A program made the position numbers and the translations under genes. From the NCBI GenBank assembly GCA_028287235.1, contig JAQBQB010000030.1:310001-374000 (forward strand): 64,000 nucleotides of DNA. Reading direction: 5' to 3'. The notes beneath the pieces are model-generated. The model worked only from the letters and a program-made list of their open reading frames with translations. It was not told the origin of the DNA and did not search any database. The DNA is from Gemmatimonadota bacterium. Lineage in GTDB: Bacteria; Gemmatimonadota; Gemmatimonadetes; Gemmatimonadales; Gemmatimonadaceae. Shown piece after piece: positions 40,666 to 42,000 of the stretch; the stretch's first letter is position 1; each line of letters begins with the position of its first letter.

Positions 40666-40896
40666 ATGACCATCACGATCGAATACTGCACGATGTGAAA
40701 CTACGAGCCTCGCGCCGTCAGTTTGGCGGCGGAGATTCGTGCGCGATTTCCCGAGGCGGACGTGAGCCTGATTCCGTCCAAGGGCGGCCGGTTCGAAGTG
40801 CTGTCGAGCGGTCTGCCCATATTCGAGAAATCGAAACTCGGCCGGAAGCCCAAGCCGGGCGAGGTCGTGCAACTGCTCGAAGCCACGCGCCGGTAG
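40666..40896 (+). CDS. selW: SelW/Rdx-family selenoprotein (in-frame TGA read as selenocysteine)
   Basis: Reading from ATG 40666 gives MTITIEYCTM, then TGA at 40696-40698, and the same frame continues without further stops to TAG at 40894. The product is 76 residues if TGA is selenocysteine (position 11). This creates the redox motif C8-x-x-U11, exactly where SelW/SelT/SelH (Rdx) proteins have CxxC or CxxU. The rest also matches: LAAEIRARFPEADVSLIPSKGGRFEVLSSG, LPIFEKSKLGRKPKPGEVVQLL. These are small thioredoxin-like oxidoreductases. A SECIS-like hairpin starts 10 nt after the TGA. No other sel gene is in the window. Alternative: a decayed CxxC gene with a nonsense mutation. No strong ribosome-binding site precedes the ATG. 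Confidence 0.82.
40709..40734 (+). promoter_or_regulatory. SECIS-like hairpin for selenocysteine insertion
   Basis: CTC-GC-GCC (40709-40716) pairs with GGC-GC-GAG (within 40725-40734), the right arm carrying two bulged G residues, closed by the loop GTCAGTTT. It begins 10 nt after the TGA; the well-studied E. coli fdhF element begins 11 nt after its UGA and also has a GU in its loop. The arms are coding, as in bacterial SECIS elements. Confidence 0.55.
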
Positions 40897-40920: not shown

Positions 40921-42000
40921 ATGCGAATCGCGATCTCCACCGGTGGGGGTGACGCCCCCGGACTCAACGCCGTCATCCGCGCCGCGGTACTCTCCGCGAT
41001 CAATCGCGGATGGGAAGTCCTCGGCATCAAGCGCGGATTCGCTGGCCTCATGGGGGAAGACGAAGTCGTTCGTCTCACCAAGGACTCCGTGCGCGGCATC
41101 GCTCACCTGGGCGGAACGATCCTGCGCACCACGAGCCGCGGCAATCCGTTTCACTATCCGCGCAAGCAGGACGACGGCAGCATCGTCGAGGAAGATCGCT
41201 CCGACGAGCTGATCGCCAAGGCGAAAGAGCTGGGCATCGACGCGCTCATCTCCATCGGCGGCGACGGCTCGCTGACGATCGCGAAGCTACTGTGCGACAA
41301 GGGCATGAACATCGTGGGCGTGCCGAAGACGATCGACAACGACGTGAGCGGCACGATCACCACGTTCGGCTTCGACACGGCCGTCAACACGGCGCTCGAG
41401 GCGATCGACAAGCTGCACACCACCGCGGAGTCGCACGACCGCGTGATCGTCATGGAAGTGATGGGGCGTGACTCCGGGTTCATCGCGCTCCACTCCGGGC
41501 TCGCCGGCACCGCCGACGTGATCCTGATTCCAGAGATTCCCTACGACATCGAGAAGGTCGCCGAGAAGATCATGTCGCGCGACCGCGCGGGACGGCACTT
41601 CTCGATCGTCGTGGTGGCGGAGGGTGCATATCCCAAGGGTGGCACGGTGTCGTTGATCGGCGACTCGCTGCCTGGTGAAGCGCGCCGGCTAGGCGGTCTC
41701 TGCGAGCCGATCGCGCGCGAGATCCAGGAGATCACCGGCAAGGAGACGCGCTCGCTCGTCCTCGGCCATCTGCAGCGCGGTGGGCAGCCGACGGGCTATG
41801 ATCGCCTGCTTGCCACGCGGTTCGGCGGGGCGGCGGTGCAGGCTATCGCGGACAAGAAGTGGGGCTATATGGTTGCGCTGCAGTCTCCGCACATCGTGGC
41901 CATCCCGATCGAGGAGGCGCTTCGCGAGCCCAAGCGTGTGGACCCCTCGCACGACGTCGTCATGACGGCCCGAGCGACGGGCATCAGCTTCGGCGACTGA
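40921..42000 (+). CDS. pfkA: 6-phosphofructokinase
   Basis: The 359-residue enzyme has the PFK signatures STGGGDAPGLNAVIRA, GIDALISIGGDGS, PKTIDNDVSGT (active-site Asp), MGRDSGFIALHSGLA and LGHLQRGGQPTGYDR. It phosphorylates fructose 6-phosphate, the committing step of glycolysis. The donor can be judged from two positions: GGDGS (Gly where PPi enzymes have Asp) argues for ATP, while Lys in PKTIDND is the group shared with PPi-type enzymes; such Gly/Lys enzymes of the mixed clade are ATP-dependent where tested. The gene follows the selenoprotein by 24 bp and may be co-transcribed. Confidence 0.94.
   Translation: MRIAISTGGGDAPGLNAVIRAAVLSAINRGWEVLGIKRGFAGLMGEDEVVRLTKDSVRGIAHLGGTILRTTSRGNPFHYPRKQDDGSIVEEDRSDELIAKAKELGIDALISIGGDGSLTIAKLLCDKGMNIVGVPKTIDNDVSGTITTFGFDTAVNTALEAIDKLHTTAESHDRVIVMEVMGRDSGFIALHSGLAGTADVILIPEIPYDIEKVAEKIMSRDRAGRHFSIVVVAEGAYPKGGTVSLIGDSLPGEARRLGGLCEPIAREIQEITGKETRSLVLGHLQRGGQPTGYDRLLATRFGGAAVQAIADKKWGYMVALQSPHIVAIPIEEALREPKRVDPSHDVVMTARATGISFGD

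Follow-up and report, generated by a model that had tools for sequence, protein, structure and literature searches.

A selW gene that continues through an in-frame TGA at codon 11 was found in the stretch of DNA analysed here (64,000 nucleotides, referred to as the window), which comes from a soil-type bacterium of the phylum Gemmatimonadota. The gene, its family, the conserved TGA, the coding constraint past the TGA, the full selenocysteine (Sec) machinery of the genome and a conserved hairpin were all observed; from these sequences we infer that UGA codon 11 is decoded as Sec and that the product is a thiol/selenol redox protein. Taking the explanation as a whole, we are nearly certain that this is a genuine SelW/Rdx-type selenoprotein gene with SelB-directed Sec at codon 11, encoding a CxxU redox protein. 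SelB together with Sec-tRNA-Sec would bind the hairpin located immediately 3' of UGA codon 11, Sec would be inserted at this codon, and the resulting small protein would be thioredoxin-like, with CxxU as its redox centre. The coordinates of the features are collected in Table 1.

Table 1. Position of selW, its sequence elements and the neighbouring pfkA in the window
Feature	Position	Strand	Description
selW-like selenoprotein gene	40666..40896	+	ATG (40666-40668) to TAG (40894-40896), 76 aa, Sec predicted at residue 11
CxxU redox motif	40687..40698	+	Cys8 (TGC 40687-40689), Thr, Met, predicted Sec11 (TGA 40696-40698)
In-frame TGA, probable Sec codon	40696..40698	+	Codon 11; conserved in 106 homologues, Cys in G203
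Putative bacterial SECIS hairpin	40702..40741	+	Stem 40713-40720 with 40724-40731; loop GTT 40721-40723
pfkA (6-phosphofructokinase)	40921..42000	+	ORF; PF00365 353.2 bits; 24 nt after selW

The selW frame, its family and the constraint past the TGA

The initial annotation had proposed a SelW/Rdx-type gene in which the TGA stands at the second cysteine position of a CxxC motif, and both the frame and the family matches agree with this. When the TGA is read as U, the product is MTITIEYCTMUNYEPRAVSLAAEIRARFPEADVSLIPSKGGRFEVLSSGLPIFEKSKLGRKPKPGEVVQLLEATRR. Its translation passed the curated cut-offs over the full domain for the Pfam Rdx profile (PF10262, 69.8 bits, cut-off 22.6), for TIGR02174 (54.6 bits, cut-off 34.2) and for NF041051 (89.4 bits, cut-off 88), and the N-terminal motif is C8-T-M-U11. 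When all six frames of the genome were searched with PF10262, the selW place was the sole match, with one TGA within it. Two solved chains are homologous by sequence, namely 2fa8 (Agrobacterium Atu0228; E 5.6e-10, residues 3-70) and 2p0g, which is named selenoprotein W-related; the selW product is predicted to be thioredoxin-like. Both structures are Cys-containing Rdx proteins that resemble the window selW in sequence, but 2fa8 has Cys where the window selW has the predicted Sec. The rhizobial-type Rdx subfamily differs from the window gene in its surroundings as well, since no pfkA neighbour was present in the loci examined (L127-L130). Plasmid records gave only distant matches of this rhizobial type, 38-44% identical to selW; in the one such record that was inspected the stretch carries no annotation.

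Named relatives assign the window to Gemmatimonadota, the closest of them being a MAG of the Gemmatimonadetes (73% identity). All 90 homologues of the listed set, which span Gemmatimonadota, Planctomycetota, Acidobacteria, Calditrichaeota, Chloroflexi, Deltaproteobacteria and others, carry TGC or TGT as codon 8 and TGA as codon 11, and the TGA was found at codon 11 in each of the 106 TGA-bearing homologues that were checked codon by codon. A selW match of at least 70 bits was obtained in 127 of 295 genomes of the class, and 126 of these 127 matches read through one TGA, its position within the match being verified in the fetched loci only. Homologues with Cys at the selenocysteine position were found as well (L126 to L130). 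In one locus (L140, genome G225) codons 8 and 11 are both TGA, giving UxxU; the same genome also has an ordinary CxxU copy.

The coding constraint past the TGA was measured over codons 12-72. The pN/pS of the window selW was 0.28-0.47 against eleven TGA-containing relatives and 0.63 against the Cys form L126, while the shifted frames gave 1.4-2.8 against four relatives. The true frame beyond the TGA is under purifying selection, and the dN/dS check that had been suggested for the codons after position 11 thus came out well below 1. These data bear directly on the possibility that translation ends at the TGA and that the remainder is a pseudogene in decay or a frame left open by chance. Long open stretches are frequent in this GC-rich window (67% GC): 65 open codons follow the TGA of selW, and the same holds for 338 of the 1487 TGA triplets (23%). 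The statement of the initial annotation that only Sec explains the open frame past the TGA is therefore a weak argument when taken alone. The full-length family match, the purifying selection past the TGA and the recurrence of this TGA across many independent genomes speak against a stop, however, and we consider it very improbable. What lifts selW far above chance is its homology and conservation, together with a genome that has the Sec machinery. As had been expected from the initial annotation, ordinary ORF calling misses selW, a small gene that is intact and conserved through the phylum.

The selenocysteine machinery and the putative SECIS

In order to decode UGA as Sec a bacterium is expected to have SelA, SelB, SelD and tRNA-Sec, and the search for selA, selB, selC and selD found all four in the genome that carries selW (G000; 5.73 Mb, 31 contigs, completeness 100). 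In the profile search SelA was located on contig C11 (531 bits), SelB on C21 (312 bits, or 345 once the C-terminal part of its 706-codon frame is included) and SelD also on C21 (378 bits). The tRNA-Sec follows selD on C21 at about 100 nt (73.7 bits); its Rfam match spans the full length and ARAGORN assigned the anticodon TCA. A tRNA-Sec above the Rfam cut-off was present in 230 of the 295 genomes sampled from the class, which together with selW points to selenium use in the phylum.

Just 3' of the UGA the minimum-energy fold gives an 8-bp upper stem and a small apical loop, GUU, with its G 23 nt after the UGA. The z-score of the folding energy is modest for the window hairpin alone (-1.77). 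The apical G stands at the same offset in 106 of 106 homologues, and is followed by U in 97 of the 106. Among 99 distinct sequences 89.6% of the stem cells are in standard pairs, whereas 500 shuffles of the columns gave 84.4% on average and never more than 86.1%, and sliding the 3' side gave 20-52%. Since the stem overlaps conserved codons, part of the pairing can be attributed to coding constraint. The strongest indication is the biased codon usage at residue 19, the source of the G-U: Ser19 is encoded by AGT in 70 of 73 genes, as against 15 of 335 later serines of the same genes (p about 1e-59, the sequences not being independent), and where the residue is Gly the codon is GGT in the 26 commonest cases, which again gives G-U. 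The Cys form L126, a single sequence, has GCG as codon 19 and has lost the loop. The fixed apical G-U and the AGT bias at Ser19 make a bacterial SECIS well supported, and the hairpin would be the element recognised by SelB.

The cysteine form and the identity of the decoded residue

The one strong exception to the TGA is found in G203, a genome in one contig with completeness 100, where locus L126 has Cys at codon 11 and keeps Cys8. The searches of this genome gave neither a SelA match nor a tRNA-Sec over the cut-off. The comparison with relatives that had been recommended at the outset thus yielded both genes that share the codon-11 TGA and one with Cys in its place, the latter in a genome without SelA or a clear tRNA-Sec.

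A clear tRNA-Sec was present in 118 of the 126 genomes with a TGA-containing selW, versus 112 of the 169 genomes without one (Fisher p 5e-9, shared ancestry being ignored). The association is not exclusive, since those 112 genomes have tRNA-Sec but no selW, as expected if other selenoproteins exist. In the eight genomes that have a TGA-containing selW and no tRNA-Sec over the cut-off, SelA is present in seven; the eighth, G087, has no SelA over the cut-off. In case of G040 (contig C1, locus L024), a single-contig assembly with a TGA-containing selW and SelA, the tRNA-Sec remained undetected at E values up to 1e-6, for which either a divergent tRNA-Sec or an assembly gap may be responsible.

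The UGA might be read as Trp or Cys instead of Sec, by a change of the code or by a suppressor, and it is sequence evidence that bears on the decoded residue here. In 43 of the 59 loci with a pfkA neighbour, however, selW itself ends at an ordinary TGA stop, the genome has the complete Sec machinery, a SECIS-like constraint follows the TGA immediately, and Cys is substituted where SelA and tRNA-Sec have been lost; hence we give such a reassignment hardly any credence. Least credible of all is a sequencing or assembly error for TGC or TGT, for even though one base would suffice and the genome is split into 31 contigs, the TGA occupies the same codon in 106 homologues, including those of the same-genus genomes G221 and G251, and this recurrence in many independent genomes excludes the misreading that the initial annotation had asked to be checked. 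A chance frame, a pseudogene, a sequencing error and a codon reassignment were thus rejected, and the decoding of UGA codon 11 as Sec is the preferred reading.

The pfkA neighbourhood and the known SelW-like proteins

The pfkA gene downstream of selW is the single PF00365 match in the genome. In 59 fetched loci selW is followed on its own strand by a PfkA homologue, and all of the selW-pfkA loci with a known genome come from the window's own order. The neighbour was absent from the loci examined from other families of the class, and also from three loci of the same order (L027, L029, L036). A 4-nt overlap between the selW stop and the start of pfkA, as placed by alignment to the PfkA of the window, is predicted for 22 of the 59 loci. 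The selW-pfkA order is retained in G203 (L126) after the change from Sec to Cys, thus the maintenance of the pair does not need Sec.

The stable place upstream of pfkA suggests co-expression or a functional tie to glycolysis. It is a rather unlikely extension that selW and the sole pfkA are translationally coupled in the order, with the Sec supply tuning PfkA synthesis by controlling whether ribosomes get past UGA codon 11, or that SelW would regulate PfkA by redox; if this were true, the selenium status would feed into glycolysis. The position of selW directly upstream of the sole pfkA seems unreported: our literature search gave no paper joining selenoprotein W, phosphofructokinase and operon, but its coverage was limited, which makes this a weak indication of novelty.

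The SelW family is known from many bacteria and animals, and its Sec-containing bacterial members have been well described before (PMC1088965, PMC2398784); the window gene adds one to them. They were the most abundant selenoproteins of the Sargasso Sea set, with a function described as unclear (PMC1088965), and 427 Sec-containing members versus 56 Cys homologues were counted in GOS (PMC2398784). Both CxxU and TxxU are among the motifs reported for bacterial selenoproteins (PMC1088965, PMC2398784), and the loss of SelW in sister species is on record (PMC1794560). The window selW shares with the bacterial SelW-like selenoproteins its length, the N-terminal CxxU, the sequence over the whole protein and a TGA with a hairpin behind it whose small apical loop contains G; it differs in the host phylum, as Gemmatimonadota are unmentioned in PMC2398784, and in the conserved pfkA neighbour. 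The selW genes of Epsilonproteobacteria, overlooked by annotation (PMC4607533), are likewise Sec-encoding and were found by homology when the TGA was read through, but they belong to another phylum and phosphofructokinase is unmentioned there. A literature search for selenoproteins in Gemmatimonadetes or Gemmatimonadota returned no title on the selenoproteins of this phylum, which is weak evidence in view of the limited coverage.

The importance of the gene is twofold. A small gene that is invisible to ordinary ORF calling proves to be intact and conserved across a large, mostly uncultured phylum, and its conserved pfkA neighbour is a concrete lead on the unclear function of the bacterial SelW-like proteins (PMC1088965). 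We regard the pfkA setting as the part worth following.

Two further families were searched in the genome of the window, and each gave one TGA-containing match. A peroxiredoxin-like frame on contig C12 (L146:668) has an in-frame TGA in the motif TKGU, of the TxxU type, and is a candidate second selenoprotein; an AhpD/CMD-like frame on contig C28 (L147:804) has an in-frame TGA in CLFU, of the CxxU type, and is a candidate third.
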